A stretch of DNA of 64,000 nt. It comes from Clostridia bacterium (lineage in GTDB: Bacteria > Bacillota > Clostridia > Christensenellales > Aristaeellaceae). Every line of letters starts with the position of its first letter. The first letter of the stretch is position 1. Below the pieces are notes generated by a model. That model was not told where the DNA came from. It worked only from the letters and a program-made list of their open reading frames with translations, and made no database searches. Positions 26,687 to 53,197 of the stretch are shown here, one piece after another. Location of the stretch: assembly GCA_017550745.1 (NCBI GenBank), contig JAFZOG010000001.1:22016-86015 (forward strand), read 5' to 3'. A program made the position numbers and the translations under genes.

Positions 26687-28222
<1,536 letters not shown>

Positions 28223-34298: not shown

Positions 34299-34312
34299 AC
34301 TCCCCTCCGATT

Positions 34313-36300: not shown

Positions 36301-36343
36301 CCGTTTCTCCTCCCTGCCTTCATTTATTCGACACGGCAGGGCG

Positions 36344-37243: not shown

Positions 37244-37258
37244 TTTTCCAATCCTCCT

Positions 37259-38215: not shown

Positions 38216-38250
38216 GAATGTCACCTCCAGAATCGGCAGGGGAATGAAAA

Positions 38251-38279
38251 GGGGGCCACGGGTAAAACCTGTGGCCCCC
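38251..38279 (-). terminator. attenuator-like hairpin between binding protein and permease genes
   Basis: GGGGGCCAC (38251-38259) pairs with GTGGCCCCC (38271-38279), and GGT/ACC continue the stem around an AAA loop. It lies inside the mannan operon, 14 bases past the binding-protein stop. There is no T run, so it probably acts as an mRNA stabiliser or partial stop that sets subunit ratios. Confidence 0.7.
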
Positions 38280-38293
38280 GGAGGATGGATAAA

Positions 38294-39619
38294 TTACTTG
38301 ATTTCCACGTTCAGGGCAGCCTGCGCGTCGGACCAGGCTTCGTTCCAATCCGCCATGATATCGTCGAAGTCCTTATCGCCGTTGAAGGCATGTTCGATGA
38401 TCTCCTGGATCTTGGTGTTGCCGCCGGCGTTGATGGCCAGCAGGGATTCGGAGTTCAGGTCGTTGAGCAGGGTTTCTTCGCCGGGCAGGGCGGGCGTATC
38501 GGCCACCATATCGATGCCGGCAAAGGCAGCGTACAGGTCGGGATATTCGCCGTTCTTATCGATGGGCACGCCGCCCTCGCTGTAAGCAAAGCCGCTCTTT
38601 TCGGTGAGCCACTTGATGTAGTACATGGCGGCCAGCTTCTGATCGTCGGAGGCCTTCACGTTGATGCCGAAGCAGTAGTCGGCGCCGGCGGAAGCGTACT
38701 GCTTGCCGTTCACGGTGATGGGGAAGCTCATGTAGCCGATGTCGTCGCCGTTGGGGCCGGCTTCCACCATCTGGCTGTAAGCCCAGGAGCCCAGCACCAT
38801 GCAGCCGATTTCGCCGCGGTTGATCATGCCCTTGCAGCCTTCCCAGTCGGTGGTGGTGTAATCTTCTTCGATCAGGCCTTCCTTCACGGCGTCGTAGAGG
38901 ATCTTGTACACGGCGTAGGGGCCGGTGCCATCGCCGTTATCGGAGAAGGGATTGGCCTTGTGCAGCAGCACCTGATTCATGTAATTGGCATCACCGGTAG
39001 CGGAACCGCCGATATAAGCGTCCCAGGCGCCCATGGTCCAGCCAGCGGCATAGTTGGTGTACAGCGGGATAGCGTCGGTGTTTTCCTTGATCAGCTTCAG
39101 AGCGGCGATGAAGGCGTCGGGGGTCTTGGGCAGCTCGGTCACGCCTGCTTTTTCAAACACGGCTTTGTTGTACACGATGCCCTGGGCATTGCCGGTGGAG
39201 GGCACGCCGTAGGCCAGGCCGTCAAAGGCCCACGCGTCGATGAAGTTGTACTTTTCAGCCAGTGTTTCCACGGTGCCGAAGGGCACGAAATAGGTGGGCA
39301 GCTCATCCTTGGCAACGGTGGGGATGCCCATGATGGTCCAGTTGTCGGTGCCGACGCGCAGCAGGGCGTTTTCGGCATAGTCGGTAATCAGGTCATAGGT
39401 GATATTGACGTTGGGATAGATTTCCTGGAACTGCTTCACATAGCCTTCCAGCACTTCCCGGCGGTCCGTGCGGTGATAAGCGAAAACCAGATCGGCGGCC
39501 AGGTCGGCATTGTCGCCCAGGTTTAGCTGATCCAGCGTGGGCAGCGTTTCGGCGGAAGCAAAGGAAGCCAGGCCCAGCAGCATGCAGGCAACCAGCACCA
39601 GAGACAGGAACTTTTTCAT
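38294..39619 (-). CDS. ABC sugar transporter solute-binding protein (manno-oligosaccharide candidate)
   Basis: 441 residues, MalE/UgpB class. The signal peptide (1-23) ends SFASA before ETLP. A cysteine at residue 12 is too early and too deep in the hydrophobic stretch to be a normal lipobox. WLTEKSGFAYSEGGVPIDKN is a typical C-terminal region of oligosaccharide binders. First gene of the mannan operon, so the likely ligand is a beta-manno-oligosaccharide. ATG with GGAGGGTAAC upstream. Confidence 0.9.
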   Translation of the reverse strand: MKKFLSLVLVACMLLGLASFASAETLPTLDQLNLGDNADLAADLVFAYHRTDRREVLEGYVKQFQEIYPNVNITYDLITDYAENALLRVGTDNWTIMGIPTVAKDELPTYFVPFGTVETLAEKYNFIDAWAFDGLAYGVPSTGNAQGIVYNKAVFEKAGVTELPKTPDAFIAALKLIKENTDAIPLYTNYAAGWTMGAWDAYIGGSATGDANYMNQVLLHKANPFSDNGDGTGPYAVYKILYDAVKEGLIEEDYTTTDWEGCKGMINRGEIGCMVLGSWAYSQMVEAGPNGDDIGYMSFPITVNGKQYASAGADYCFGINVKASDDQKLAAMYYIKWLTEKSGFAYSEGGVPIDKNGEYPDLYAAFAGIDMVADTPALPGEETLLNDLNSESLLAINAGGNTKIQEIIEHAFNGDKDFDDIMADWNEAWSDAQAALNVEIK

Positions 39620-39947: not shown

Positions 39948-39976
39948 TTGACAAATGCGGCAGGAAGAAATATAAT
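39948..39976 (+). promoter_or_regulatory. consensus sigma-A promoter of the transketolase operon
   Basis: TTGACA (39948-39953), 17-base spacer, TATAAT (39971-39976): perfect consensus. Confidence 0.92.
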
Positions 39977-39985
39977 TCAATCATA

Positions 39986-39999
39986 ACCGGTATACCGGT
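39986..39999. promoter_or_regulatory. operator-like palindrome, probable GntR/FCD site
   Basis: ACCGGTATACCGGT is a perfect 14-base palindrome starting 9 bases after the -10 box, across the expected transcription start; a further CCGGTT half-site follows at 40003-40008. FCD-type GntR regulators such as UxuR/ExuR bind sites built on GGTATACC. The operon ends with a GntR/FCD gene (50149-50847), its likely reader. I saw no second copy in the window. Confidence 0.75.
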
Positions 40000-40064
40000 A
40001 TTCCGGTTAGGAACAGTGATTACATACCACGTGTCAGGTGAAGACGCCACGGAAGATCGCAGCA

Positions 40065-40109
40065 ATGGTTGAAGGGAAACATGATTGTGAAAGAGGGCGA
40101 ATTTGGTGA
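40065..40109 (+). CDS. possible 14-codon leader peptide
   Basis: ATG at 40065, 14 codons, stop TGA at 40107-40109 that overlaps the GTG start of the SDR gene (GTGA). The ribosome site (CGGAAGA) is modest. The SDR start has no ATG and only a fair ribosome site, so coupled translation through this short frame is plausible. No recognised peptide. Confidence 0.35.
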   Translation: MVEGKHDCERGRIW

Positions 40110-40858
40110 ACGTGAAAGACAAGGTCATAATCATTACTGGCGCTGGCGGTGGATTGGGAAGTGAAATGGCCAAGCTGCTATCCCAACAGGGAGCACGAGT
40201 TTGGCTGCTTGATCTCGATGAAGAAAAAGGCCAGAAAGAAACAGACAAGATCAGGGCCGCCGGTGGAAACGCCTGGTTTCTGAAAATGGACGTCACCAGT
40301 GAGGAGGATTGGCGCAACGCTGTCAACGCCGCGGTGGAAACATGCGGACGGCTGGATGTGCTGGTCAATAACGCCGCGATCAATATCCGAAAGCCGGTAG
40401 AAGAAATGAGTATGGATGAATGGTGCGCCATGATGAAAGTCAATACCGGCTCCGCGTTTCTGGGATGCAAATACGCGATTCCTGTTATGCGGAAACAGGG
40501 TGGCGGCGCGATCATCAATACGTCCTCCGTATGCGGTCTCATAGGCCACAAATATACGCCTGAAGCTTATACCGCCTCCAAGGGAGCGGTCACAATGCTC
40601 ACAAAAGCCATTGCCTCACGCTATGGCAAAGACGGTATCCGCTGCAACTCGATCCACCCGAGCACGGTGGATACGCCATTCGTTCAGGTTTTATTCCAGG
40701 ACCCGCAGCGAAAGGCGGAACGGCTTGGCGAGGTGCCGCTTGGCAGGCTGGCGACAGCCGCTGATGTGGCAAACGCGGTACTGTATCTGGCAAGCGAAGA
40801 AGCCAGTTTCATCAACGGCGTTGCCCTGCCGATCGACGGCGGCGTGACGTGCTATTGA
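40106..40858 (+). CDS. short-chain dehydrogenase/reductase
   Basis: 250 residues, classical SDR. Cofactor motif TGAGGGLG (11-18), NNAA at 88-91, catalytic S140, Y155 and K159 (YTASK), C-terminal GVALPIDGGVTCY. It resembles gluconate 5-dehydrogenase / sugar-acid SDRs in general shape, but the substrate cannot be read from sequence. First enzyme of the operon, 16 bases before the transketolase genes, so it probably creates or reduces the keto-sugar (acid) that the transketolase uses. GTG 40106 is chosen over TTG 40103; both follow AAAGAGGG. Confidence 0.88.
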   Translation: MNVKDKVIIITGAGGGLGSEMAKLLSQQGARVWLLDLDEEKGQKETDKIRAAGGNAWFLKMDVTSEEDWRNAVNAAVETCGRLDVLVNNAAINIRKPVEEMSMDEWCAMMKVNTGSAFLGCKYAIPVMRKQGGGAIINTSSVCGLIGHKYTPEAYTASKGAVTMLTKAIASRYGKDGIRCNSIHPSTVDTPFVQVLFQDPQRKAERLGEVPLGRLATAADVANAVLYLASEEASFINGVALPIDGGVTCY

Positions 40859-40874
40859 TAGAGGAGGGAGAATC

Positions 40875-41714
40875 ATGCCTTATACCGATCAGGAAATCCA
40901 TGAATTGAAAAGAATCGCTGTCAACCTGCGGGCCAATTTGATCGAAATGATCCCGGCTGGAAAGGTGGGCCATCTGGGAGGCAGCAGTTCGATCATGGAT
41001 GTCGTTGCTGCCTTGTATTTCAAGCATATGCGGGTTTTCCCCGATCCGAAAGACCCTCGCCGCGACCGTTGCGTTTTCTCCAAAGGCCACGCGGTATTGG
41101 CGCAGTACGCCGCGTTTGCCGAATTGGGATATGTCAGCCGGGAGGATTTGAAAAAAGTAAAAACCCTGGACGGCACCTTGCAGGGGCATCCCGACATGGA
41201 TCACACACCGGGCATTGAAGCCGTAACCGGCTCCCTGGGGCAAGGGCTGTCCGTGTCTCTCGGAATGGCGCTTGGTCTCCGTTTGGAAAACAGCGACAGC
41301 CGTGTTTACTGCGTTGTTGGCGACGGTGAAATGGATGAAGGCCAGATTTGGGAAGCCGCTATGGCAGGCGCGGCTTACAAACTGGATAATCTGGTGGCGA
41401 TCATTGACAGGAATGGTGTTCAGGCTACGGATACGATACCGAACGTGCTGCCAAATGAAAAGATAAAAGAAAAATGGGAAGCATTCGGTTGGAATACGCT
41501 GGAGATCGACGGTCACGATATGAAGCAGATTCTTGAAGCGCTGGACGCTTCCAGGGTGTGCAAAGAAAAGCCTACAGCCATCATTGCCCATACAGTGAAA
41601 GGGAAGGGATTTGCCTTTGCGGAAGGCAAGGCCGCCTATCATAACGCCGCGATGACGCAGGATGAATATCAGCAGGCTTTATCGACCATCGAAAAAATGC
41701 GGAAGGAGGCTTAA
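40875..41714 (+). CDS. transketolase, N-terminal subunit
   Basis: 279 residues, the thiamine-diphosphate-binding half of a split transketolase. GHLGGSSSIMDVVAALYF, SKGHAVLAQYA, TGSLGQGLSVSLGMALG and GDGEMDEGQIWEAAM (the thiamine motif) are all present. It joins the C-terminal subunit encoded 2 bases later to make an enzyme that moves two-carbon ketol units. It lies in an operon without other pentose-phosphate genes, so it is probably pathway-specific. GAGGAGGGAG ribosome site. Confidence 0.94.
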   Translation: MPYTDQEIHELKRIAVNLRANLIEMIPAGKVGHLGGSSSIMDVVAALYFKHMRVFPDPKDPRRDRCVFSKGHAVLAQYAAFAELGYVSREDLKKVKTLDGTLQGHPDMDHTPGIEAVTGSLGQGLSVSLGMALGLRLENSDSRVYCVVGDGEMDEGQIWEAAMAGAAYKLDNLVAIIDRNGVQATDTIPNVLPNEKIKEKWEAFGWNTLEIDGHDMKQILEALDASRVCKEKPTAIIAHTVKGKGFAFAEGKAAYHNAAMTQDEYQQALSTIEKMRKEA

Positions 41715-41716
41715 CC

Positions 41717-42658
41717 ATGAATAAGATGGATATGCGGAAGGCATATGGCGAAGCCCTTGTGGAATTGGGGCACAGCAAGAAAAATGTGGTCGCCCTGGAA
41801 GCTGATCTTGGTAAATCCACCATGTCCAATATGTTTGGCAGCGCGTTTCCGGAGCGTTATTTTCAAATGGGGATTGCGGAAGCCAATATGATTTCTTCCG
41901 CCGCCGGATTGGCGTTGACAGGGCATGTTGCTTTCGCAAGCAGCTTTGCCGTATTCGCCAGCGGCCGCCCATACGATCAAATTCGTTCTTCTGTCGCTAT
42001 TCCCCGGCTGAATGTGAAAATCTGCGGGTCTTCTGCCGGACTTTCCGACTTTGGCGACGGTAAAACACATCAATCCGTTGACGATATCGCGCTGATGCGT
42101 GTGCTTCCGAATATGAAAGTCTTTTCCCCCGCCGATTACGCTGAAACAAAGAAAATCGTGAAAGCCATGGCCGATTTGGACGGCCCCTGCTACATCCGGC
42201 TGAATCGCAACCCGATCCCCCAGGTGACAGACGAAAACGCGCCGTTTGAGTACGGGAAAGTGACTCAGCTGCGCGATGGAAGCGATGCTGTCGTCTTTGC
42301 CACGGGATATATGGTTTATCAGGCATTGGAAGCCGCGAAAACGCTTGAGGCGGATGGGATTTCTGTTCGCGTCATCAACATCCACACGATCAAACCGATG
42401 GACGTCGAGGGCGTACAGGCAGCGGCGAAAGGAATGAAAGGCGCTGTGACGGTCGAAGAAGCCAGTGTGATCGGCGGCCTGGGGTCGGCTGTGTGCGAAA
42501 CATTGGCGGAAGGCCCCGCGGAAAGCAGAATCAGGGTCCTGCGGATGGGTATTCCGGATTGCTTCGGGACATCCGCGCAGACTTATGACGAGCTGCTGGC
42601 GGCATATCATCTGACCCCAGAGGACATCGTGCGGAATGTAAAAGCCGCTATGATCTGA
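41717..42658 (+). CDS. transketolase, C-terminal subunit
   Basis: 313 residues: pyrimidine-binding domain (ALEADLGKSTMSNMFG; FQMGIAEANMISSAAGLAL) and the C-terminal domain (INIHTIKPMDVEGV; TVEEASVIGGLGSAV). E in GIAEANM is the conserved glutamate that activates thiamine. Starts 2 bases after the partner gene, giving equal amounts of both chains. Split enzymes of this kind include the apulose-4-phosphate transketolase and the sulfoglycolytic transketolase, so a non-standard substrate is credible here. Confidence 0.94.
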   Translation: MNKMDMRKAYGEALVELGHSKKNVVALEADLGKSTMSNMFGSAFPERYFQMGIAEANMISSAAGLALTGHVAFASSFAVFASGRPYDQIRSSVAIPRLNVKICGSSAGLSDFGDGKTHQSVDDIALMRVLPNMKVFSPADYAETKKIVKAMADLDGPCYIRLNRNPIPQVTDENAPFEYGKVTQLRDGSDAVVFATGYMVYQALEAAKTLEADGISVRVINIHTIKPMDVEGVQAAAKGMKGAVTVEEASVIGGLGSAVCETLAEGPAESRIRVLRMGIPDCFGTSAQTYDELLAAYHLTPEDIVRNVKAAMI

Positions 42659-42681
42659 TCTTTTGAAAGGAGCGGGAGACC

Positions 42682-43569
42682 ATGAAAATCGGATTCATTG
42701 GATTGGGGATTATGGGTAAACCGATGGCAAAAAACCTGGTTAAAGCCGGTTATGAAGTCATTGTCGCTGACAAATTTGCGCCTGGTGCTGTGGAAGAATT
42801 GGTATCTTGCGGCGCTTCCGCCGGAAAATCCAATATGGATGTCGGGGCTCAGGCGGACATTGTAATCACCATGGTGCCCAATTCCCCTCATGTGAAGGAA
42901 GCGCTGTTTGGTGAGGACGGCGCGGCGAAAACCATGAAAAAAGGAAGCATCGTCCTGGATTGCTCCTCCATCAACCCCATTGCTTCCCGTGAAATCAGCG
43001 GCGAATTGGAAAAGCTGGGAATCGAAATGCTGGATGCGCCCGTTTCCGGGGGCGAGCCTAAGGCAATTGACGGAACCCTTGCTTTCATGGTTGGAGGTAA
43101 GCAGGAAGTTTTCGATCAGTGCAAAGACATTCTGGCGAAAATGGGTTCATCTGTCGTCCGCTGCGGCGAGATCGGCGCGGGCAATGTGACGAAGCTGTGC
43201 AATCAGACAATTGTCGCTGTGAATATCGCGGCGCTGGCGGAAGCGATGCAGCTGGGCCAGATGTGCGGCGTTGAACCGCAGAAAATATTTGAAGCCATAA
43301 AAGGCGGACTAGCCGGTTCAACTGTCATGAACGCCAAAGCGCCCATGATGATGGATCAAAACTTCAAGCCCGGTTTCCGGATCGACCTTCATATCAAGGA
43401 TTTAAATAACGTGGTGGATGCCGCCAAGACCGTGGATGCTCCGATTCCGCTGGCGCAGACTGTTCTGGAAATGATGAAAATCCTGCATCATGACGGTGAC
43501 GGAAGCTGCGACCACAGCGCATTGCTCAAATACTATCAGAAGCTGTCAGGCGAAGTCCTGCATCACTGA
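42682..43569 (+). CDS. garR: 2-hydroxy-3-oxopropionate (tartronate semialdehyde) reductase, GarR-like
   Basis: 295 residues of the beta-hydroxyacid dehydrogenase family. GFIGLGIMGKPMAKNL at the N terminus, VSGGEPKAIDGTL (S122), GAGNVTKLCNQ with catalytic K171, and the GarR-specific NFKPGFRIDLHIKDL and DHSALLKYY near the C terminus. GarR reduces tartronate semialdehyde to D-glycerate with NAD(P)H. The glycerate 2-kinase later in the operon would take the product. AAAGGAGCGG ribosome site. A role in reducing a related short semialdehyde is the main alternative. Confidence 0.88.
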   Translation: MKIGFIGLGIMGKPMAKNLVKAGYEVIVADKFAPGAVEELVSCGASAGKSNMDVGAQADIVITMVPNSPHVKEALFGEDGAAKTMKKGSIVLDCSSINPIASREISGELEKLGIEMLDAPVSGGEPKAIDGTLAFMVGGKQEVFDQCKDILAKMGSSVVRCGEIGAGNVTKLCNQTIVAVNIAALAEAMQLGQMCGVEPQKIFEAIKGGLAGSTVMNAKAPMMMDQNFKPGFRIDLHIKDLNNVVDAAKTVDAPIPLAQTVLEMMKILHHDGDGSCDHSALLKYYQKLSGEVLHH

Positions 43570-43662
43570 TCGAAGAACCGTTCCTAAATATGGCGGAACC
43601 CGCTGTATTTAAATAAATGGTTTCCCAAAGGGAAATCGGAAAAAAGAAAGGAAGGAAATCCC

Positions 43663-44925
43663 ATGAAGAAACTCGCACTGTTCCTGGCCCTGGTGATGAT
43701 CGCCTGCACTTGCCTGACCGGCGCGCTGGCGGAAGAGGACATCCTGATTACCTGGTGGGGCAACCAGACCCGCAATGAACGTACCCATAACGCCTTGATG
43801 CTCTTCGCCTCTGAACACGAAGGAGTCACCTTCACCGAAGTACCCAATTCCTGGGCGGACTATTGGAAAAAGGTCGCCGCTGACGCTCAGGGCGACACCC
43901 TGGATGTCATCCAGATGGACTATCAGTACCTCAACCAGTATGCCGGAAGCGGACTGCTGCTGGATCTGACCCCCTATGTGGAAAGCGGCGCGCTGAACAT
44001 CAGCGGGATCAACGATGGAATCATCAATGCCGGTAAGGTAGATGGCAAGCTGTACGCCGTCTGCATCGGCGTGAACGCTCCCGCCCTGCTGTACAACAAA
44101 ACCGTGCTGGATGCGGCCGGTATCGCCGTAAAAGACAACATGACCCTGGATGAATTCCTGGATCTGTGCCGTGAGATTTACGAGAAAACCGGGTACAAGA
44201 CCAATATTGGCTACGGCACGGACATGGTGTTCGGCTACATCCTGCGCGGCTATGGCATCAACCTGTTTGAGAACGGCAAGCTGAACATTACCAAGGAAGA
44301 CGCTGAAAAGTTCCTGTCCCTGTATGAAACCGGCATCAAGGAAGGCTGGCTCCTGGGCAGCGAAGTGTTCGCGGAAACCGCTGTTGGCACCGTGGAACAG
44401 GATCCCATGGTTTACGGTTCTGATCCCGCTTACATGAGCTGGTGCGCCTTCTTCTGGTCCAACCAGGTGACCGCTATGCAGAACGCCGCTCCCGAAGGCG
44501 TCGAAATCGGCCTCACCACCTGGCCCTCTCCCGATCCCGTGAAGTCCAACTACTTAAAGCCCAGCCAGTTCTTCTCTGTGGCAGCCAAGACGAAGCACGC
44601 TGATACCGCCGTTGCCGTGGTGGATTTCTGGACGAACTCTGTGGAAGCCAACAAGATCCTGCTGGGCGAGCGCGGCATTCCCGCGGCCGCCGCTACTGCG
44701 GACGGTATCGCTGAATTGCTGGATGCCAGCAACCAGAAGGTAGTCGCCTATATCAACAATGTGGTAAGCCCCAACTGCTCCAATGTGCCTGCCGCTGATC
44801 CCGCTGGCGCAAGCGAGTTCTATAACCTGGTGGACGAATTGCAGGAAGCGATCTGCTATGGCGCTATGAGCGCTTCTGACGCCGCCGCTCAGCTGATTGC
44901 GGAATGCCCCGCCAATCTGAAATAA
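43663..44925 (+). CDS. ABC transporter solute-binding protein
   Basis: 420 residues, UgpB/MalE class. Signal peptide residues 1-24 ending TGALA before EEDI (type I site, no lipobox in the usual place). ILITWWGNQTRNERTHNALM and WWG are typical of this binding-protein group. It feeds the two permeases encoded downstream; the ligand is presumably the uronide or sugar acid handled by the operon. AAAGGAAGG upstream; a small TTTCCC/GGGAAA hairpin (43620-43634) lies in the leader. Confidence 0.9.
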   Translation: MKKLALFLALVMIACTCLTGALAEEDILITWWGNQTRNERTHNALMLFASEHEGVTFTEVPNSWADYWKKVAADAQGDTLDVIQMDYQYLNQYAGSGLLLDLTPYVESGALNISGINDGIINAGKVDGKLYAVCIGVNAPALLYNKTVLDAAGIAVKDNMTLDEFLDLCREIYEKTGYKTNIGYGTDMVFGYILRGYGINLFENGKLNITKEDAEKFLSLYETGIKEGWLLGSEVFAETAVGTVEQDPMVYGSDPAYMSWCAFFWSNQVTAMQNAAPEGVEIGLTTWPSPDPVKSNYLKPSQFFSVAAKTKHADTAVAVVDFWTNSVEANKILLGERGIPAAAATADGIAELLDASNQKVVAYINNVVSPNCSNVPAADPAGASEFYNLVDELQEAICYGAMSASDAAAQLIAECPANLK

Positions 44926-44936
44926 CGATCTGAACA

Positions 44937-44979
44937 TCGGGGAGGGGAGCGGAGCCTGAAAACTTCGCCCCCCTCTTGA
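44937..44979 (+). terminator. weak hairpin between binding-protein and permease genes
   Basis: GAGGGG-GCG pairs with CGC-CCCCTC across about 43 bases, followed by TT. A partial stop or mRNA-stabilising hairpin, as in the mannan operon. The 187-base gap (44926-45112) holds nothing else I can name. Confidence 0.35.
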
Positions 44980-45112
44980 CGCTCAAAGCCAGCCTGTAAA
45001 CCTGCTGTGTAATGTGGCCTCCCGCTGCAATGACACAGGCCAATGCGCTCTGAAAGACACCGTGTCCCAACAATTGTGAAGCACGGACAACCCATGAAGG
45101 GGAGGAACCGCC

Positions 45113-46027
45113 ATGACACAAATCGCTGTGAAAAAGCACAAAAAAACCTTCCGGCAGAAAATCAACGAAGAACACATCGCGGGCATGATTTGCACGGCGC
45201 CGTTCACCATCGGTTTCTTTCTGTTTATGATCGTGCCGATGCTGATTTCCGCCTACTATGCCTTCTGCGATTTCAATATCCTCCAGCCCGCTAATTTTAC
45301 CGGCCTCAGTAACTTCAATGTCATGTTCGCAGATTCAAAATTCTGGAAGTCACTGGGCGTCACGTTCTATTTCGCATTTGTCTCCGTGCCGCTCAGATTG
45401 GTGTTCGCGCTGATCGTCGCGCTGATTCTTTTGAAAACCAGCAAGGCCACAGCCTTTTACAGGGCGGCTTATTACCTGCCGTCCATTATCGGCGGCTCGG
45501 TAGCCGTCGCCATTCTGTGGAAGCGTATGTTCGCCATCGACGGAACCATCAACGTTCTGCTGCGCGGCATCGGCGTTGATTCCAGGATCGCCTGGCTGGG
45601 CCGCACGGATACCGCCATCTGGACGCTCATCGTTCTTTCTATCTGGCAATTCGGTTCATCCATGCTTATTTTCCTTTCCTCATTAAAACAGATTCCCACA
45701 ACCCTGTATGAAGCGGGGCAAATCGACGGCGCGAATGCGGGAAAGCGATTCTTCAGGATTACGCTTCCGCTGCTGACGCCCACAATTTTCTTCAACCTTG
45801 TTATGCAGATGATCAACGGGTTCCTTGCTTTTACCCAATGCTACATCATTACACAGGGAAAGCCCATGAACTCAACGCTGTTCTATACTGTTTATATGTA
45901 TCAGCAATCCTTTGAATACTACAAAGCGGGCTATGGCGCAGCGCTGGCCTGGGTCATGCTGGTCATCATCGGCATGTTCACCGGACTGCTCTTTGCCACA
46001 AAACGCTTCTGGGTCTATGAGGAGTGA
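45113..46027 (+). CDS. ABC sugar transporter permease, UgpA/MalF type
   Basis: 304 residues, basic N terminus (KKHKKTFRQK), six transmembrane segments and loop YEAGQIDGANAGKRFFRITL. Pairs with the next permease, whose start lies 5 bases after this stop. AGGGGAGGA upstream of the ATG. Confidence 0.93.
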   Translation: MTQIAVKKHKKTFRQKINEEHIAGMICTAPFTIGFFLFMIVPMLISAYYAFCDFNILQPANFTGLSNFNVMFADSKFWKSLGVTFYFAFVSVPLRLVFALIVALILLKTSKATAFYRAAYYLPSIIGGSVAVAILWKRMFAIDGTINVLLRGIGVDSRIAWLGRTDTAIWTLIVLSIWQFGSSMLIFLSSLKQIPTTLYEAGQIDGANAGKRFFRITLPLLTPTIFFNLVMQMINGFLAFTQCYIITQGKPMNSTLFYTVYMYQQSFEYYKAGYGAALAWVMLVIIGMFTGLLFATKRFWVYEE

Positions 46028-46032
46028 CGGAT

Positions 46033-46884
46033 ATGAGGAGAAGAAAACAAAAGATCGCAGGACGCTGTATCTACCATATTCTTGTATGCGGCTTTGCGTT
46101 TGTGATGATTTATCCCCTGCTCTGGATGGTGCTGAGTTCGTTTAAGCCAACAAATACCGTTTTCACTACTGCTCAGGAACTGTTTCCACGCTCCTGGACG
46201 CTGGAAAACTATTCCAACGGCTGGAAAGGATTTGCCAATGTGAGCTTCGGCAGATTCTTTCTCAACTCCCTGTTTATTTCCGTGATGGCGACGATGGGTA
46301 CCCTCGCTTCCTCATCCATCGTAGCTTATGGCTTTGCGCGTCTCAGGTTCAAGGGTCGGGGCGTACTGTTCTCCGCAATGCTGGTGACCATGATGCTGCC
46401 TGCCCAGGTGCTGATGATTCCGCAATATATCTGGTATCAAAAGCTGGGCTGGGTAGGCAATTATCTGCCGCTGATCGTTCCTTACTGGTTTGCCATTCAG
46501 GGCTTCTTCGTCTATCTGATGACCAATTTCATCAGCGGTATCCCCAAGGATCTGGACGAAGCCGCAAAAATTGACGGCTGCTCTACCTATGGAATCTTCT
46601 TCTGGATCATTCTTCCCCTGATTGTTCCCGCCTTGATCACAGGCGGTATCTTCTCCTTCATCTGGCGCTGGGACGACTTCCTGTCCGCCCTCCTGTACGT
46701 CAGCAAAACAGAAACCTATCCCGTCAGCCTTGCGCTGAAGCTGTTCAGCGATCCAAGTTCTTCTTCTGACTATGGCGCAATGTTCGCTATGTCCACCTTG
46801 TCCATTCTGCCTGTGGTGCTGATTTTCATCACACTGCAAAAGTATTTGGTGGAAGGAATTGCGACATCCGGTTTGAAGGGATAA
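46033..46884 (+). CDS. ABC sugar transporter permease, UgpE/MalG type
   Basis: 283 residues, six transmembrane segments, loop DEAAKIDGCSTYGIFFWII and C terminus LVEGIATSGLKG. ATG 46033 follows GAGGAG by 8 bases; an in-frame GTG at 46024 overlaps the upstream stop and is less likely. No ATPase gene follows, as with the other sugar importers here. Confidence 0.92.
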   Translation: MRRRKQKIAGRCIYHILVCGFAFVMIYPLLWMVLSSFKPTNTVFTTAQELFPRSWTLENYSNGWKGFANVSFGRFFLNSLFISVMATMGTLASSSIVAYGFARLRFKGRGVLFSAMLVTMMLPAQVLMIPQYIWYQKLGWVGNYLPLIVPYWFAIQGFFVYLMTNFISGIPKDLDEAAKIDGCSTYGIFFWIILPLIVPALITGGIFSFIWRWDDFLSALLYVSKTETYPVSLALKLFSDPSSSSDYGAMFAMSTLSILPVVLIFITLQKYLVEGIATSGLKG

Positions 46885-46940
46885 TTCTGGCAGCGGAGAA
46901 TGAATATATCGGATTTCAATCATAAATGGAGGGAAAAACC

Positions 46941-48338
46941 ATGATTTGTGAAAAGAACCCGCGGGCAAAGGAATTGAATGTGGCGTACATTGGCGGCGGC
47001 TCCCGCGGCTGGGCCTGGGGATTTATGATGGATCTGGCCATGGACGAAGCCATGTGCGGCACGGTGCGGCTCTATGACATTGACCGTCCGGCTGCGGAAC
47101 GCAATAAAATCATCGGCAATAAAATCAGCGCTCATCCGGACGCCGTTTCCCGATGGGAATACGAAGTGAGCGATTCTTTGAAGGACGCGCTGACTGGGGC
47201 GGACTTTGTGGTGATCTCCATTCTTCCCGGCACCTTTGAAGAGATGCGGTCAGACGTACACCTGCCGGAGCGGGTTGGCGTTTACCAGCCGGTGGGCGAT
47301 ACGGTGGGTGCTGGTGGTTTTATGCGCGCCATGCGCACCATTCCCATGTATGTCACCATAGCGGAAGCGATCCGCGATTATGCTCCCGAAGCCTGGGTCA
47401 TCAATTATACAAATCCCATGTCTTTGTGCGTTCGGACGCTGTATGAAGTTTTTCCCAAAATCAAAGCGTTCGGCTGCTGCCACGAAGTATTTGGAGCGCA
47501 GCGGCTCATGTGCGCTATGCTGAAAACCGAAGAAGGTATTGAGGGCGTAACGCGGCATGATTTATATACAACCGTTACCGGGATCAATCATTTCACCTGG
47601 CTCACGCGCGCAAGCTACAAGGGGATCGACTTGATGCCCATGTATGCCCGTCTTGCCGATAAGTACTATGAAACCGGCTACGATGAGGGCGGCGACAGGA
47701 ACTGGATGAATTCGCATTTCAACTGCGCCCAGCGGGTGAAGTTTGATCTCTTCCGCCGTTATGGGGTCATTGCGGCCGCCGGAGACCGGCATTTGGCGGA
47801 ATTTACAGCGCCGTGGTATACTTTGAACCCCGATGTGGTCAGGGAATGGAAGTACAGCCTGACAACTGTGGACTGGCGCGTGAAGGATCTGCATGACCGA
47901 CTGCAGCGATCCGATGATCTGATCAGCGGCAAGGAAAAATTGGTGCTGAAGCCTTCCGGCGAAGAGGGCCATCTGCTTTTGAAAGCCGTGCTTGGCCTGG
48001 GTGATCTGGTATCCAACGTCAACATTCCCAATCGCGGTCAGATTCCCAACCTGCCGCTGGGTTCTGTGGTAGAAACGAACGCGCTGTTCGGCAGGGATCG
48101 GATCGAACCCATTTACGCGGGTACGATGCCGTCCAATATCCTTCCGCTGGTGGCCAGACATATCTACAATCAGGAAAACACATTGACTGCCGCGCTGCGG
48201 TGCGACCGAAAGCTGGGCTTCTCCACATTCATGAACGATCCTCAGATGTCCGCGGTCACTGTGGCGGATGGGCAAAAGCTGTTTGACGACATGCTGGAAA
48301 ACCAGCGCGCCTATCTTCCCAAAGCATGGTTCAAATAA
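46941..48338 (+). CDS. GH4 family glycosidase, LplD-like (alpha-galacturonidase candidate)
   Basis: 465 residues. NAD-binding VAYIGGGSRGWAWGFMMDLA and GVYQPVGDTVGAGGFMRAMR resemble LplD of Bacillus subtilis, a GH4 alpha-galacturonidase. Metal-site residues are visible as Cys in FGCCHEVFG and His in TGINHFTWL. GH4 enzymes need NAD and a divalent metal and cut by transient oxidation at C3. This enzyme would release a uronic acid (or another sugar) from the imported glycoside. ATG 46941 has GGAGGG 7 bases upstream. Sits between the importer and the glycerate kinase. Confidence 0.85.
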   Translation: MICEKNPRAKELNVAYIGGGSRGWAWGFMMDLAMDEAMCGTVRLYDIDRPAAERNKIIGNKISAHPDAVSRWEYEVSDSLKDALTGADFVVISILPGTFEEMRSDVHLPERVGVYQPVGDTVGAGGFMRAMRTIPMYVTIAEAIRDYAPEAWVINYTNPMSLCVRTLYEVFPKIKAFGCCHEVFGAQRLMCAMLKTEEGIEGVTRHDLYTTVTGINHFTWLTRASYKGIDLMPMYARLADKYYETGYDEGGDRNWMNSHFNCAQRVKFDLFRRYGVIAAAGDRHLAEFTAPWYTLNPDVVREWKYSLTTVDWRVKDLHDRLQRSDDLISGKEKLVLKPSGEEGHLLLKAVLGLGDLVSNVNIPNRGQIPNLPLGSVVETNALFGRDRIEPIYAGTMPSNILPLVARHIYNQENTLTAALRCDRKLGFSTFMNDPQMSAVTVADGQKLFDDMLENQRAYLPKAWFK

Positions 48339-48351
48339 CCACGTAAACAGT

Positions 48352-48390
48352 AAGCTGGGCACGAGGGTTCTCGTTCCCAGCTTATATTTC
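48352..48390 (+). terminator. hairpin between the GH4 and glycerate kinase genes
   Basis: AAGCTGGG (48352-48359) pairs with CCCAGCTT (48376-48383), extended by ACGA/TCGT, followed by ATATTTCTT. Likely a terminator or attenuator, so the glycerate kinase may be less expressed or have its own promoter. Confidence 0.65.
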
Positions 48391-48429
48391 TTACAAAAAT
48401 GATGTCTACGGGCAGCGCGGAGGGAAGGT

Positions 48430-49590
48430 ATGAAATTTCTGTTTGCGTCAGATTCATTCAAGGGCAGCCTGACAAGCGCTCAAACAGCTTTACTGTTGAC
48501 ACGAGCCGCAAAGCATGTTTTTCAGTCATGCGACGTTTCAGATGTACCTGTTGCGGATGGTGGGGAAGGAACAGTTGACGCCGTATTATTGGCCGAAAAC
48601 GGAGAGAAAGTCAGTGTATGCGTTCACGACCCGCTGATGAGGCCGATCCATGCCGTTTATGGACGCTTTGACCACGATAAAGCGATCATTGAAATGTCGG
48701 CGGCGTCTGGGCTTCCATTAATAGAAGAAAACCTTCGCGATCCTCGAAAGACGACCACCTATGGAACCGGTGAATTGATACTTCATGCGTTATCCCACGG
48801 AGCAAGCGAATTGTATATTGCTATCGGAGGATCTGCCACGAACGATGGTGGGATGGGATGTATGCAGGCATTGGGGGCTCGCTTCCTGGACGCGGATGGA
48901 AAGCCTGTAGAAGGCGTCGGCGAAAACCTCGAAAAAGTATGCCGCATAGATTTGAGCGGCTTGGATCATCGTATTCATAGAGCATCCGTTACTGTATTAT
49001 GTGATGTTAAAAATCCACTTTGCGGATCAAATGGCGCAACATATACCTATGGCCCGCAGAAAGGCGGCACACAGGAAACGCTTGCTTTCCTGGAAGCGGG
49101 GATGATGAATTACCGTCAGGTCATTCTGCGTGAATTTGGACAGGATTGCAATAAGATAGAAGGGGCTGGAGCAGCGGGGGGCCTTGGCGCGGCATTGAAG
49201 GTGTTTTGCCACGGGAAAATGAAATCGGGCATAGAAACAGTACTTGATCTGATTCACTTTGACGAACGGCTTGAAGGCGTAGATTTGGTGATTACGGGCG
49301 AAGGAAGGACGGATTACCAGAGCTGCCTTGGAAAGGTGATGCAGGGTATCGGATTAAGAGCGAAGAAAAAAGGGATCCCCGTTGTCGGGCTGTCCGGGTC
49401 CCTTGGAGAAGGGGCTATGAAAATATTTGATGATGGCGTTTCCTCCCTGATGACAAGCATAAACGCTCCCATGACACTTAGGGAGGCAATGGAACGTTCC
49501 GAAGAATTGTATTTGAACGCCGCCGTTCGCATGTTCAGAATGATTCAGGTCGGCATGGATATTCAGGAAAAGCGGGCATGTCAGTCATAA
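48430..49590 (+). CDS. glycerate 2-kinase (GarK/GlxK family)
   Basis: 386 residues. FASDSFKGSLTSAQTA at the N terminus, PVADGGEGTVDAVL, IGGSATNDGGMGCMQALG and TGEGRTDYQS are signature segments of this family, which makes 2-phosphoglycerate from D-glycerate and ATP. It completes the route from tartronate semialdehyde through the GarR-like reductase to glycolysis. Codon use is slightly more AT-rich than the upstream genes. Ribosome site GGAGGGAAGG. Confidence 0.93.
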   Translation: MKFLFASDSFKGSLTSAQTALLLTRAAKHVFQSCDVSDVPVADGGEGTVDAVLLAENGEKVSVCVHDPLMRPIHAVYGRFDHDKAIIEMSAASGLPLIEENLRDPRKTTTYGTGELILHALSHGASELYIAIGGSATNDGGMGCMQALGARFLDADGKPVEGVGENLEKVCRIDLSGLDHRIHRASVTVLCDVKNPLCGSNGATYTYGPQKGGTQETLAFLEAGMMNYRQVILREFGQDCNKIEGAGAAGGLGAALKVFCHGKMKSGIETVLDLIHFDERLEGVDLVITGEGRTDYQSCLGKVMQGIGLRAKKKGIPVVGLSGSLGEGAMKIFDDGVSSLMTSINAPMTLREAMERSEELYLNAAVRMFRMIQVGMDIQEKRACQS

Positions 49591-49644
49591 AGAATTCTTT
49601 CACAAAATTGTTTTCCCTATTCGGCTCATATGGAGGGCACAAAA

Positions 49645-50076
49645 ATGAGCGCGTTATTTGAAATCGTAAACTATGTCAATGCGAACAATATAGCCAAATG
49701 TACATGCTATGAGGATCGGCTCGTGCTTGAAACGATCCATCTGGGCGGTTTTCATTTGTTTGAATATTACACCTATCAAAATAAGAAAAAGACAATTATG
49801 CTCGACGATATTAAAGAAATCGTTATTTCTGGAAGCCCAGCTTCTCCATCAACGTCCGGGAACAGCGACAGGCGATACATTCAGATTTTGACAGTTCATG
49901 ATGATTATAAACCCTTCAGGGATGTCAGCGCTGTATATACGATGATGGCCATCCATCTTTCCCTGATTCATAACGCCATCTATCTATCAGATTTCAAAAA
50001 AAACGACCTGGAAGCAACTTACAAGACAGCACGGGCAATGAAGGCATTCTTTGATAAGAAATTGAAACAACTCTGA
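49645..50076 (+). CDS. hypothetical protein, 143 residues
   Basis: Not recognised. Predicted soluble, with alternating strands in the first ~90 residues (CTCYEDRLVLETI; TIMLDDIKEIVIS), a polar linker (SPASPSTSGNSD) and a helical C terminus (ATYKTARAMKAFFDKKLKQL). The strand pattern recalls small PH-like folds but that is only a guess. Real-gene evidence: TGGAGG 8 bases before the ATG, position between the kinase and regulator genes of one operon, and a promoter for the next gene just after it. Confidence 0.6.
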   Translation: MSALFEIVNYVNANNIAKCTCYEDRLVLETIHLGGFHLFEYYTYQNKKKTIMLDDIKEIVISGSPASPSTSGNSDRRYIQILTVHDDYKPFRDVSAVYTMMAIHLSLIHNAIYLSDFKKNDLEATYKTARAMKAFFDKKLKQL

Positions 50077-50080
50077 ACAA

Positions 50081-50109
50081 TTGAAAGCAGTGCAAAAACG
50101 TGGTATAAT
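50081..50109 (+). promoter_or_regulatory. promoter of the GntR-family gene
   Basis: TTGAAA (50081-50086), 17-base spacer, TATAAT (50104-50109) with an extended -10 TGG. It starts within a few bases of the previous stop and allows independent expression of the regulator. Confidence 0.75.
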
Positions 50110-50148
50110 CTTTTTGAGGATGAAGAATCACTGAAGTGGGGTATAAGA

Positions 50149-50847
50149 ATGACAGACTATAAAGCGCTCAACAATATAGCTTATGATTTCCTTCGAAACA
50201 TGATATATAACTGCGAATTAGAGTATGATAAAATCTATAGCGAAACGAAACTTGCCGCGCAAATAAGCATATCACGGACACCTATGCGGGATGCGCTTAA
50301 CCGTCTGGCGCATGAAAGGTATATCGATATCCTTCCAAATCGCGGTTTTGTACTTCATGCCCCAACAGAAAGTGACATTATTGAAGCTTTTCATGTCCGT
50401 ATGATGACCGAAGGATATTGCGCTAAAGTCGTGTCAAACGAATATCCTGAACCATTAGCGAAAGAAACAATTGCCAAAATGGAAGAAGCGTTGCAGCAGC
50501 AATCACGCCTGTTGGAGCATGATGAAGAATATAGTCTCAGCCAGTTCTGGCTCGATGACCTTAGATTCCACAAAGCATTATTAGCGCACTTGAGTATTCC
50601 TTCTATAATACAGCAGTATGAAAGTGTTATGCATATTTTTATGCCTCATCATCTTATCAGAGATTTTAAAACTCATGGTAAGGATGAGAAAGTATTGCTT
50701 CGCCATCGAAGCACGATCATTGAGCATACAGAAATCATTGATGCTCTGAAATCAAAAGATAAAACTCGTGTCTATTCTGCTATCAACGCTCATATCGCTT
50801 CCAGTATGAATGCACTTCGAGAACGAATGAATGCCGCTGATAAATGA
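50149..50847 (+). CDS. GntR-family regulator with FCD domain
   Basis: 232 residues. The winged HTH (YSETKLAAQISISRTPMRDA, about residues 27-46) is followed by an all-helical FCD effector domain (IIEAFHVRMMTEGY; FHKALL; HRSTIIEHTEIIDAL), the subgroup that includes UxuR, ExuR and LldR and senses sugar acids or carboxylates. The perfect GGTATACC-centred palindrome at the start of the operon is its probable site, which supports a sugar-acid inducer for the whole module. Confidence 0.9.
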   Translation: MTDYKALNNIAYDFLRNMIYNCELEYDKIYSETKLAAQISISRTPMRDALNRLAHERYIDILPNRGFVLHAPTESDIIEAFHVRMMTEGYCAKVVSNEYPEPLAKETIAKMEEALQQQSRLLEHDEEYSLSQFWLDDLRFHKALLAHLSIPSIIQQYESVMHIFMPHHLIRDFKTHGKDEKVLLRHRSTIIEHTEIIDALKSKDKTRVYSAINAHIASSMNALRERMNAADK

Positions 50848-50945: not shown

Positions 50946-52505
50946 TTAAACCTCCACTTCCGTCCCATCCCGGAAGGTAAATACCAGCTTATCCCCAACA
51001 GTCACATAATCCAACAGACCACACCAGAGTTCGGGATTGAATTCTTCCACTCTACCGTCCTGTTTCTTCAGCAGCCGGATGTATTCTTCAATCTCACCCA
51101 GCCGCGCTTTTTTATCGCTGATCTGTTTTTCTGTCTCTGTCTTTTTTACTTTTGCCTGTTCAAAGCGGTCGCTCATAGCCTGGAACTTTTTCTGGTATTC
51201 TTCCTGGTCAAGGGCGACCGTTGCGTTTTCCCTGATAAGAGCCTGCATTTTATCTGACAACACCTGCATTTCTGTTTCCAGGGAAGCCAGTTCAATTTCC
51301 AATGCTGTAGTGTCGAAAACAGTCCTCTTTGCGGCTTCAAAGGCGGCAATGGCTTTCTTCCTCCCATTGAGCACCTCGTTCACGGCGGCCAGGAAAGCCG
51401 TTTCTATCTGTTCTTCCCTCAGATGGGGCGTAGTACATCTCTTCCCATCAAACTTATGATTGCATTGCCAAATGACCCGCCTGTATTTATCATTGCTGTG
51501 CCAGACCTTGGAACCAAACCAGGAGCCGCATTCCGCGCAGCGAATCTTCCCGCTGAATATCCTCACCCCGCTGTGGGCGCCATTCCGGCGCTCAATCTCC
51601 CTTTGCACCTGTTCGTGGACAGCAGGATCAATAATGGCGGTGTGATTGTTTTCCACGTAGTATTGGGGAATCTCGCCTTCATTAACCTTCTTTTTCTTTG
51701 TCAGGTAATCCGTGGTGTAGGTTTTTTGCAGCAGCGCGTCCCCGCGGTATTTTTCGTTCATCAAAATGTGCCGGACGGTAGTGCCGCCCCACACATCTTT
51801 CCCGCCGGGTGATTTGATTCCTTCCGCAGTGAGGGTCTTGGCGATTCCATAAGGCGTCATGCCCTGGAGGAACATGCTGTAAATGCGGCGGACGATCACG
51901 GCCTGTTCCTCGTTCACTTCCAGCGTTCCGGTTTCGCCTTTGTCGTATCCCAGGAAGCGGCCATACGGCACAGCGACCTTTCCATCCGCCATCCGTTTCC
52001 TGTGCCCCCAGGTCACGTTCAGGGAAATGGAACGGCTTTCTTCCTGGCTGAGGCTGGACATGATGCTGATCAGCAATTCTCCCTTGCTGTCGAAAGTCCA
52101 GATGTTCTCCTTCTCGAAGAAAACCTCGGTGCCATGCTCCTTCAGCGCCCGAATGTTGGAAAGGCTGTCCACAGTGTTCCGGGCAAACCTGCTCACGCTC
52201 TTTGTCACGATCAGATCGATGCGTCCGGCCAGCGCGTCAGAAATCATCTGCTGGAACCCTTTTCGTTTGGTGGTGGAGGTTCCGCTCACGCCGTCGTCGG
52301 TATACACGGAAACAAACTCCCAGTCAGCCCGTGACTTGATGTAGTTGGTGTAGTAATCCACCTGCGCCTCATAGGAATTCTGCTGATCCTCGTTCCCCGT
52401 GCTGACGCGGGCGTACCCGGCCACCCTCCGCTTCTTTTGCGCCGACAGCGGAGCGGCGGTGTGCAGCGCGAGCGTCGCCGGTATCGTCCTTACGTTTTTT
52501 GCCAT
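50946..52505 (-). CDS. large serine recombinase
   Basis: 519 residues. Resolvase domain with catalytic S35 in YARVSTG, then SVSRFARNT, then the recombinase domain (GTTVRHILMNEKYRGD), a zinc ribbon (IRCAECGSWFGSKVW) and a coiled coil (about residues 405-480). Such enzymes integrate prophages or transposons. Start ATG with GGAGGAAAG upstream; its first codons overlap the end of the truncated recombinase gene in another frame, so the two formed a tandem pair. No intact cargo is visible next to it. Confidence 0.93.
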   Translation of the reverse strand: MAKNVRTIPATLALHTAAPLSAQKKRRVAGYARVSTGNEDQQNSYEAQVDYYTNYIKSRADWEFVSVYTDDGVSGTSTTKRKGFQQMISDALAGRIDLIVTKSVSRFARNTVDSLSNIRALKEHGTEVFFEKENIWTFDSKGELLISIMSSLSQEESRSISLNVTWGHRKRMADGKVAVPYGRFLGYDKGETGTLEVNEEQAVIVRRIYSMFLQGMTPYGIAKTLTAEGIKSPGGKDVWGGTTVRHILMNEKYRGDALLQKTYTTDYLTKKKKVNEGEIPQYYVENNHTAIIDPAVHEQVQREIERRNGAHSGVRIFSGKIRCAECGSWFGSKVWHSNDKYRRVIWQCNHKFDGKRCTTPHLREEQIETAFLAAVNEVLNGRKKAIAAFEAAKRTVFDTTALEIELASLETEMQVLSDKMQALIRENATVALDQEEYQKKFQAMSDRFEQAKVKKTETEKQISDKKARLGEIEEYIRLLKKQDGRVEEFNPELWCGLLDYVTVGDKLVFTFRDGTEVEV

Positions 52506-53197
52506 TGTGCTTTCCTCCCATCGGTAAAATGGTACTCCATGCTGCCGTCCGGCTGGACTGTGATCCTTTCAACCTGAGCCTTGAAACCTTCATCGTTCAG
52601 TTCTTCGGCCCCCATCATGTACGCGCTGATGCGCCGCAGATGGGAATCAGGAATGTTTGGGCCATGGTGGGAAGGATCTTGATCCGCTCCCGTCCGTTTC
52701 TTTCCGATGCAGTACCAGTAAATCCACTTTTTCGCGCATTTCACCCGGTGGTAGGGTTTCCCGCAGGCGGCGCAGAAAACTTTGTCCTGGAAAGCGTCGG
52801 TGACGGTGGTGGTATGGCGGTATCTCGACAAGTGGAGGTTTTCCCATTCCCTGGTCCCGCCGCCCGCCATCGTGAATAGCAGATTGCCGTTCTGCTCGAC
52901 CGTTATGGTGGCGACCTGCGCCATGAAAATATCTTCCTGAAAGGAAGGAAGCCCAAGAACCTGGGCGCAAATTGCTTCCAGGGTGTCCTCGCTGAAGTTT
53001 ACGCTGCTGCAATGCATTCCAAGTTCTTTTTTCGCTCTGCATACCCATTGGATATACCGCCGCCCTTTCGATATGCGCGTGTTCCGGCTGAACGGCATCC
53101 CGCAGCAGCCGCAGGTGATTTTGCCTGTAAAGCAGTAGGTGGGATTCAGCATGGCGTTTCTCCGCGCCATTTCTGCCTTAACCCTTTCATAAAGCAA
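52490..53197 (-). pseudogene. 5'-truncated serine recombinase
   Basis: 235 codons of the C-terminal part of a recombinase: two zinc-ribbon units (KITCGCCGMPFS and VFCAACGKPYHRV) and a tail. The catalytic resolvase domain is gone. The frame begins right after two in-frame stop codons (53203-53198), and the LysR stop is only 26 bases away, so the N-terminal half was deleted and joined to the LysR locus. Probably non-functional, though the DNA-binding zinc ribbons remain readable. Confidence 0.85.

Follow-up and report, generated by a model that had tools for sequence, protein, structure and literature searches.

Split transketolases serve apiose pathways, and in the galactarate/glucarate pathway the semialdehyde arises from the aldolase GarL. 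In the sulfoglycolytic transketolase (sulfo-TK) pathway, the split enzyme SqwGH moves a two-carbon (C2) unit from a non-phosphorylated, acid-bearing ketose to glyceraldehyde 3-phosphate (GAP), giving xylulose 5-phosphate (Xu5P); one variant of the pathway goes on to reduce the short acid aldehyde, and the head-group residues of the transketolase are changed (PMC11659671, PMC12890257), those of the sulfofructose (SF) transketolases being RAFDR instead of RSFHR (PMC11659671). An engineered Escherichia coli TktA, R358I/H461S/R520Q, has raised activity on 5-ketogluconate, yielding tartaric semialdehyde (PMC12016104). Here we consider a 64-kb stretch of DNA (the window; C57:22016-86015) from the metagenome-assembled genome of a gut-type Clostridia bacterium (3.75 Mb, 88.78% complete, 7.45% contaminated). 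At 40103-50847 it carries a single plus-strand operon for a short-chain dehydrogenase/reductase (SDR), a split transketolase (halves TKN and TKC), a GarR-type reductase, an ABC importer, an LplD-like glycoside hydrolase of family 4 (GH4), a glycerate kinase and a GntR/FCD regulator. An earlier note on this DNA had named these genes at these places, all on the plus strand, and family matches confirm it. The core of the operon is real, conserved and probably self-regulated, and the gene families lend good support to its logic, for a substrate that is itself predicted.

Relatives were sought in the contigs of 84,980 species, using an alignment of the window TKC with one relative (A1) plus two peptide patterns; the best 80 of 192 loci, together with one from an order relative (L033), make up the 81 loci compared below. 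The aligned transketolases, also 81, are those of the window, of L033 and of 79 of the 80 scan loci, and in the table of gene presence the window is counted instead of L123, where the gene finder missed TKC. Ten loci with other split transketolases, taken from order relatives and 38-44% identical, formed the control set.

The operon enzyme has the make-up of a split transketolase, an adjacent thiamine diphosphate (ThDP) half and PYR/C half (PF00456, PF02779, PF02780), and it is in the donor site that it stands apart. R358, S385, H461 and R520 are the residues of the donor-phosphate site in the E. coli enzyme, whose numbering fits the alignment. This pentose-phosphate site is incomplete in the clade: position 461 is serine in 81/81 sequences (S106 in the window TKC), the other three residues being kept, along with D469, in every one of the 81; the window TKC also keeps H473. 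Throughout the clade the loop around position 461 reads SSxGLSD[FY]GDG, with single-letter variants in L092, L094/L099 and L120. The constancy of S385 is partly forced, because this residue lies within a peptide pattern of the scan; the 461 loop lies outside the patterns. Taken together with the engineered TktA and the SF transketolases, the Ser461 loop makes the site look rebuilt for an anionic donor that is not a phosphate ester. It could be argued that the operon simply holds an ordinary split pentose-phosphate transketolase that tops up central metabolism from within a sugar operon, and both the fold family shared with the Carboxydothermus split transketolase and the retained R358, S385 and R520, which help to bind the donor phosphate in the E. 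coli enzyme, are in keeping with this. We nevertheless find it very improbable: Ser461 and the reshaped GLSD[FY]GDG loop run through the whole clade, the genome also carries a full-length transketolase (C16), and the linkage to GarR is missing from 10/10 control loci. Moreover, the clade is a separate one, its 81 rows in the TKC tree (midpoint-rooted, with a long-branch warning among the ten other transketolases) falling on one side of a branch with support 100/99.

Position 461 of the ten control transketolases is His in four, Asp in three and Ser in three, and one of these serines belongs to the apiosidase-linked split transketolase of the window's own genome. The shared Ser461, and the part that split transketolases play in apiose pathways, speak for a transketolase acting on apulose or apulose 4-phosphate in the use of apiose, an idea raised in the earlier note. 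The operon has no apiosidase, isomerase or sugar kinase, and the apiosidase-linked enzyme, 40% identical, sits at another locus (C155, or L034), where the split transketolase lies two genes from an apiosidase-like gene and which suits the apulose idea better; apiose use by the operon itself is thus disfavoured and seems to us hardly credible. At this second locus (L034, 4637-10914) Ser461 stands in ISGGVSYGALG, the split transketolase is followed by genes for a GlpK-like kinase and for an apiosidase-like protein (PF13204), and a distant sulfoquinovose (SQ)-isomerase-like protein is encoded upstream; the locus resembles an operon for apiose use, in which the kinase may act on dihydroxyacetone instead of apulose. 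The order relatives L038, L041 and L042 have split transketolases with Asp461 (L038 also with Ala385), like the SF transketolase signature.

Since the neighbor gene calls are heuristic (an amino-acid-composition scorer), the presence of the key genes was recounted with tblastn. By this count TKN is found in 81/81 related loci and GarR in 62/81 (61 of these at ≥50% identity, against 0/10 control loci), and an SDR homolog at least 50% identical in 38/81; by gene clusters, of which the SDR cluster is a broad one, 64/81 have an SDR or a Zn-dependent dehydrogenase no more than 5 kb from the transketolase. The nearest relatives (L045-L060) have SDR, TKN, TKC and GarR that are 66-94% identical, in the same order where they lie on the contig. 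Six further order-level loci show the transketolase motif or a near form in five cases and GarR in three. The clade spans seven phyla (Bacillota, Spirochaetota, Bacteroidota, Pseudomonadota, Elusimicrobiota, Synergistota and Acidobacteriota), the sole Acidobacteriota locus (L118, 8 kb) being without GarR. Within the order the module is patchy, with a transketolase at E ≤ 1e-85 in 8/396 genomes, its own among the eight, and 28 genomes of the same genus have no close transketolase match (best 41% identity). These locus counts are not independent, because several contigs end near the transketolase, three Petroclostridium X23 loci share a chromosome and some loci are near-copy pairs. The module had been expected to stay together in related genomes: its core of transketolase, SDR and GarR does so, and the GH4, the importer and the glycerate kinase lie outside the conserved set.

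The reductase bears on what the transketolase leaves behind. All 56 of the module reductases scanned (the clade members called as genes of 280-312 aa) match the tartronate semialdehyde reductase model NF008592 at E ≤ 1e-119, that is, at about the curated cut-off or better, and the window GarR is the sole match at E ≤ 0.001 in its genome. From these matches the operon GarR is predicted to reduce tartronate semialdehyde with NAD(P)H; it falls short of the threonate dehydrogenase model (213 bits, cut-off 350). The window glycerate kinase falls below the narrower equivalog cut-offs for glycerate 2-kinase and 3-kinase (314 and 324 bits against 686 and 625). A GlxK glycerate kinase lies near the core in the window, L045, L114 and L138, and one of the unrelated GlyK/MOFRL family in L048, L059 and L061. 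With two unrelated glycerate kinase families near the core, albeit in few loci of many, glycerate appears to be tied to it by function rather than by descent. Given the GarR matches and the glycerate kinase of the operon, our best guess is that the left-over is tartronate semialdehyde, on its way to glycerate. Proteins of the HpcH/HpaI family in the same genome amount to a strong match that is closest to CitE (363 bits, cut-off 443) and a second, weak one (C149, 29.9 bits).

If the left-over is tartronate semialdehyde, the acid has to be a pentonate, such as xylonate or arabinonate, which would be cleaved in its 4-keto form. The importer would take up a glycoside that contains the acid or gives rise to it, and the GH4 would open this glycoside; in relatives the acid would enter by TctABC, TRAP or GntP instead. 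The SDR would then oxidize, with NAD+, the carbon beside the CH2OH end to give a terminal hydroxyketone, a Zn-dependent dehydrogenase taking this slot in other genomes. From the non-phosphorylated keto-acid the Ser461 split transketolase, an enzyme of established family and predicted substrate, would move C2 to GAP, making Xu5P. GarR, by its family, would reduce the remaining tartronate semialdehyde to glycerate and regenerate NAD+, and the glycerate kinase, likewise by family, would form 2- (or 3-) phosphoglycerate. The sum would be pentonate + GAP + ATP -> Xu5P + phosphoglycerate + ADP, an element balance worked by hand. The earlier note had proposed that a sugar acid is broken down by way of the transketolase and that its short semialdehyde is reduced to glycerate and then phosphorylated, and the gene families bear this out. 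Its suggested donors fare less well with a glycerate end: on a 4-keto-pentonate the transketolase leaves tartronate semialdehyde, whereas on a 5-keto-hexonate, tagaturonate, fructuronate or 5-ketogluconate it leaves a C4 acid, so that a C5 keto-acid is needed. That the operon serves a locally regulated, redox-neutral catabolism of aldonates, seemingly of plant origin, built on a dedicated transketolase is a reading that we hold to be about evenly balanced. Slightly short of even we would place the broader proposal of a natural and widespread aldonate transketolase pathway, composed of dehydrogenase, H461S split transketolase, GarR and glycerate kinase, with a transaldolase variant for hexonates. 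In the literature covered (full texts under open licence in PMC, titles and abstract openings, with subscription papers mostly outside) we found no description of a natural bacterial transketolase route for aldonates, pentonates, hexonates or hexuronates.

The neighborhood of the core offers further hints about the acid and is in keeping with aldonates. Transporters for acids are present in 31/81 loci (TctA in 12, DctM in 14, GntP in 6) against 1/10 control loci, and in near relatives the core is accompanied by either TctABC or a GH120 gene. Pentose-linked glycosidases lie nearby in several loci, namely GH51 (L064, L066, L075 and L102), GH120 (L051, L056 and L057) and GH10 (L083), and C5 acids are therefore favored; GH31 (L104) and GH3 (L124) are silent on C5 versus C6. 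The window itself has a GH51 arabinofuranosidase at 26693-28222 (NF051901, 786 bits), about 12 kb upstream of the operon. Relatives of LarA lie within 6 kb in L065, L079, L097 and L105, and some LarA homologs are D-gluconate 2-epimerases (PMC7583248, PMC11770544).

Several points weigh against the pentonate scheme. The substrate is a predicted one, all of the chemistry being read from families. No GarR match exists in 19/81 loci, 11 of them on stretches longer than 13 kb, and GarR is lacking in three of the six further order-level loci. Near the core a glycerate kinase is found in 6/81 loci (the window counted, L138 added later), that of L061 is on the opposite strand, and one of the ten control loci (L036) has a GlxK homolog too. 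Ser461 alone does not name the donor, because 3/10 control transketolases also carry Ser; the H461S change by itself marks a changed phosphate site, to judge from sequence, and not a sugar acid. That glyoxylate carboligase (TIGR01504) has no match in the genome speaks for the scheme but is a soft absence, as related ThDP enzymes also went unfound there, though they were matched in 14/14 control genomes; absences in this genome are soft in general because it is 88.8% complete and 7.45% contaminated. The GH4 points to a uronide, and the pentonate scheme has no need of one. Finally, a transaldolase-family gene stands directly behind the same operator in L050 (3692-4750), L052 and L059, where TKC is 80-81% identical to that of the window, and genes for PfkB and 6-phosphogluconate dehydrogenase are added in L048, L050-L052 and L065, hinting at hexonates. 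C6 acids may be used too, since tartronate semialdehyde is also what a transaldolase would produce from a 5-keto-hexonate.

These last observations bear on the alternative that the acid is a hexonate, or a uronate-derived 5-keto-hexonate such as 5-ketogluconate or tagaturonate. By removing C2 the transketolase would leave 2,3-dihydroxy-4-oxobutanoate, which a GarR-like enzyme would turn into threonate or erythronate; with a transaldolase, the products would be tartronate semialdehyde and fructose 6-phosphate. A divergent transaldolase-family protein is found near the transketolase core also in L054, L063, L065 and L086; it gives about 45 bits to solved transaldolases and keeps the stretch around the catalytic Lys. 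Besides the transaldolase genes, some cores have other neighbors that agree with hexonates, namely genes for GntP permeases, LarA relatives, PfkB and 6-phosphogluconate dehydrogenase, and so does the activity on 5-ketogluconate of an engineered TktA that bears H461S (PMC12016104). Set against them are the uniform match of the 56 reductases and the threonate dehydrogenase score given above; the 50 neighbor proteins scanned include none for threonate or tartrate (many neighbors fall outside that scan), and that transaldolase has no match in the window's genome, in a search without a positive control. Likewise, the operon SDR stays below the gluconate 5-dehydrogenase model NF006070 (177 bits, cut-off 279), while a separate protein at C64 exceeds a cut-off of that name. 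We thus consider a hexonate possible though rather unlikely. Pentonate (via transketolase) and hexonate (via transaldolase) may both feed one GarR.

A uronic acid was the substrate that the earlier note had derived from the GH4. The closest PDB entry to this enzyme is LplD (3fef; 500 bits over 443 residues, with the CCHEVFG stretch in common), annotated as an alpha-galacturonidase, and from this likeness it is predicted to cleave alpha-galacturonides. A uronic acid freed by it could, once isomerized elsewhere, become a keto-acid from which the transketolase takes C2, and the two UxaC genes of the genome could supply such a keto-acid. A GH4 match is found in only 2/81 related loci, L045 (95% identical) and, in part, the spirochete L108, where a GH4 fragment with 40% identity is some 9 kb away from the transketolase, a CUT1 importer lying between; in the window and L045 the GH4 and the CUT1 importer belong to the same run of genes as the core. 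As the earlier note correctly stated, the operon lacks uronate isomerase, KDG kinase and KDPG aldolase, and we found in it no UxaC, uronate reductase or dehydratase. Such genes are elsewhere in the genome: C64 and C72 hold the two UxaC, a tagaturonate reductase, a galactarate/altronate-dehydratase-like protein, KduI, a KDPG aldolase and a KDG-kinase-like protein, with UxuA pieces at C2 and C128. Because of these genes, galacturonate freed by the GH4 would probably take the canonical route. A uronate feed would moreover leave the SDR without a role and end in C4, not C3; it appears improbable, and the release by GH4 of a uronic acid that feeds the transketolase finds no support. For the same reason, the canonical genes lying elsewhere, use of the operon for hexuronates only is disfavored. 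Either the transketolase core would then treat the other half of the glycoside, or the GH4 would act on another glycoside.

That the operon has its own control is suggested by its upstream region. The left edge given in the earlier note, 39948, proves to be the first base of a sigma-70 promoter with 12/12 consensus bases. The palindrome ACCGGTATACCGGT, with up to two mismatches, has 2 matches in the 64-kb window (shuffled mean 0.03; 0/100 shuffles reached 2), and the exact form occurs as a single copy in the 3.75-Mb genome. Among the genomes of 15 relatives searched, seven have one exact copy each and the other eight none; the seven copies precede the module in L045, L046, L047, L050, L052, L053 and L059, behind a TTGACA/TATAAT-like promoter. 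By eye, a promoter-like sequence is present upstream of the operator in these seven loci and in L060, where the operator form has two changes. Since the operator is exact only once in the genome and is kept upstream of the module in relatives, the operon has a local regulator. This is probably its own GntR/FCD protein, predicted to act on ACCGGTATACCGGT; a homolog lies immediately downstream of GarR in L046, L047, L058 and L060. A wider operator regulon in the same genome was considered and rejected, the sole other site with at most one mismatch (C75) falling inside an open frame; in relatives, one-mismatch sites do occur away from the module.

Table 1. Features of the operon and its control region, in window coordinates.
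Feature	Position	Strand	Basis and remarks
Sigma-70 promoter, TTGACA-17-TATAAT	39948..39976	+	12/12 consensus match
Operator: exact palindrome ACCGGTATACCGGT (39986-39999) and overlapping one-mismatch copy (39994-40007)	39986..40007	.	Binding predicted
SDR dehydrogenase; proposed penultimate-carbon (omega-1) aldonate dehydrogenase, putative substrate	40103..40858	+	PF13561, NF005559 subfamily
Transketolase N (ThDP) half, TKN	40875..41714	+	PF00456; best PDB match 6yak (Carboxydothermus split transketolase, N chain)
Transketolase C half, TKC, with SSxGLSD[FY]GDG motif	41717..42658	+	PF02779, PF02780; aligns to 6yaj
Tartronate semialdehyde (2-hydroxy-3-oxopropionate) reductase, GarR type	42682..43569	+	NF008592, 442 bits (cut-off 397); best PDB match 1vpd
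ABC importer solute-binding protein, CUT1 type	43663..44925	+	PF13416/PF01547
ABC importer permease 1	45113..46027	+	NCBIfam permease matches
ABC importer permease 2	46024..46884	+	NCBIfam permease matches
GH4 glycosidase, LplD-like (alpha-galacturonidase type), lineage-specific addition	46926..48338	+	PF02056+PF11975; 3fef, 500 bits
Glycerate kinase, GlxK/GarK family	48430..49590	+	TIGR00045, 436 bits (cut-off 168); PF02595, 447 bits
148-aa open reading frame, no Pfam match	49630..50076	+	45% identical in L045, between glycerate kinase and regulator
GntR/FCD regulator, probably of this operon	50149..50847	+	PF00392+PF07729; own promoter-like site 50081-50109

The operon copies of the window and L045 (Table 1) have diverged unevenly: GarR, importer and GH4 are 94-95% identical, SDR and transketolase 84-88%, the regulator 69%, the glycerate kinase 63-66% and the 148-aa protein 45%. 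At the level of sequence this suggests patchwork exchange. Directly behind the operon, on the opposite strand (50946-53017), a large serine recombinase is encoded together with a recombinase zinc-ribbon protein, which may mark where a mobile element ends. On its other side a divergent gene set (31954-39619) encodes GH130-like, cellobiose-2-epimerase-like and GH26 proteins, an ABC importer and, judged by sequence, a LacI-type regulator, and has a 12/12 promoter on the minus strand at 39703-39675; it looks like a set for mannan use.

If the proposed pathway is true, pentonic acids have an extra outlet beside the dehydratase routes of Weimberg and Dahms type, one that would suit fermenting gut and sediment bacteria since it needs no electron acceptor. 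It would also mean a natural family of enzymes that split keto-aldonates, something that E. coli transketolase has until now been engineered to do in the making of tartrate; SSxGLSD[FY]GDG would be a signature by which genes called simply transketolase could be re-annotated.

Each of the described systems shares something with this locus. The two-chain transketolase of Carboxydothermus hydrogenoformans (6yaj/6yak) is the closest solved relative of the operon enzyme but has the usual His in its phosphate site (THAGLTVGEDG), and LplD resembles the GH4, which differs in an operon context without uronate isomerase and KDG genes. With the galactarate/glucarate pathway the operon has in common an end in GarR and GarK/GlxK, of the same families, but there is no GarL-type aldolase in the operon. 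The engineered TktA likewise splits a keto-aldonate next to the hydroxyketone, and H461S is common to both (PMC12016104); it is an engineered enzyme with a C4 product, whereas the operon transketolase is natural, split, placed beside GarR and keeps R358 and R520. Finally, the sulfo-TK pathway has SQ and sulfoerythrulose (SEu) isomerases and the residues RAFDR, and it yields sulfoacetaldehyde. In the operon the ketone would come from a dehydrogenase, the residues are R358, S385, S461 and R520, and the predicted product is glycerate. Membership of the sulfo-TK group was accordingly rejected, for S385 is kept and position 461 is Ser, where the sulfo-TK signature has Ala and Asp, and the operon has neither an SQ isomerase nor an SEu isomerase. 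The operon works like the sulfo-TK pathway without being a member of it.

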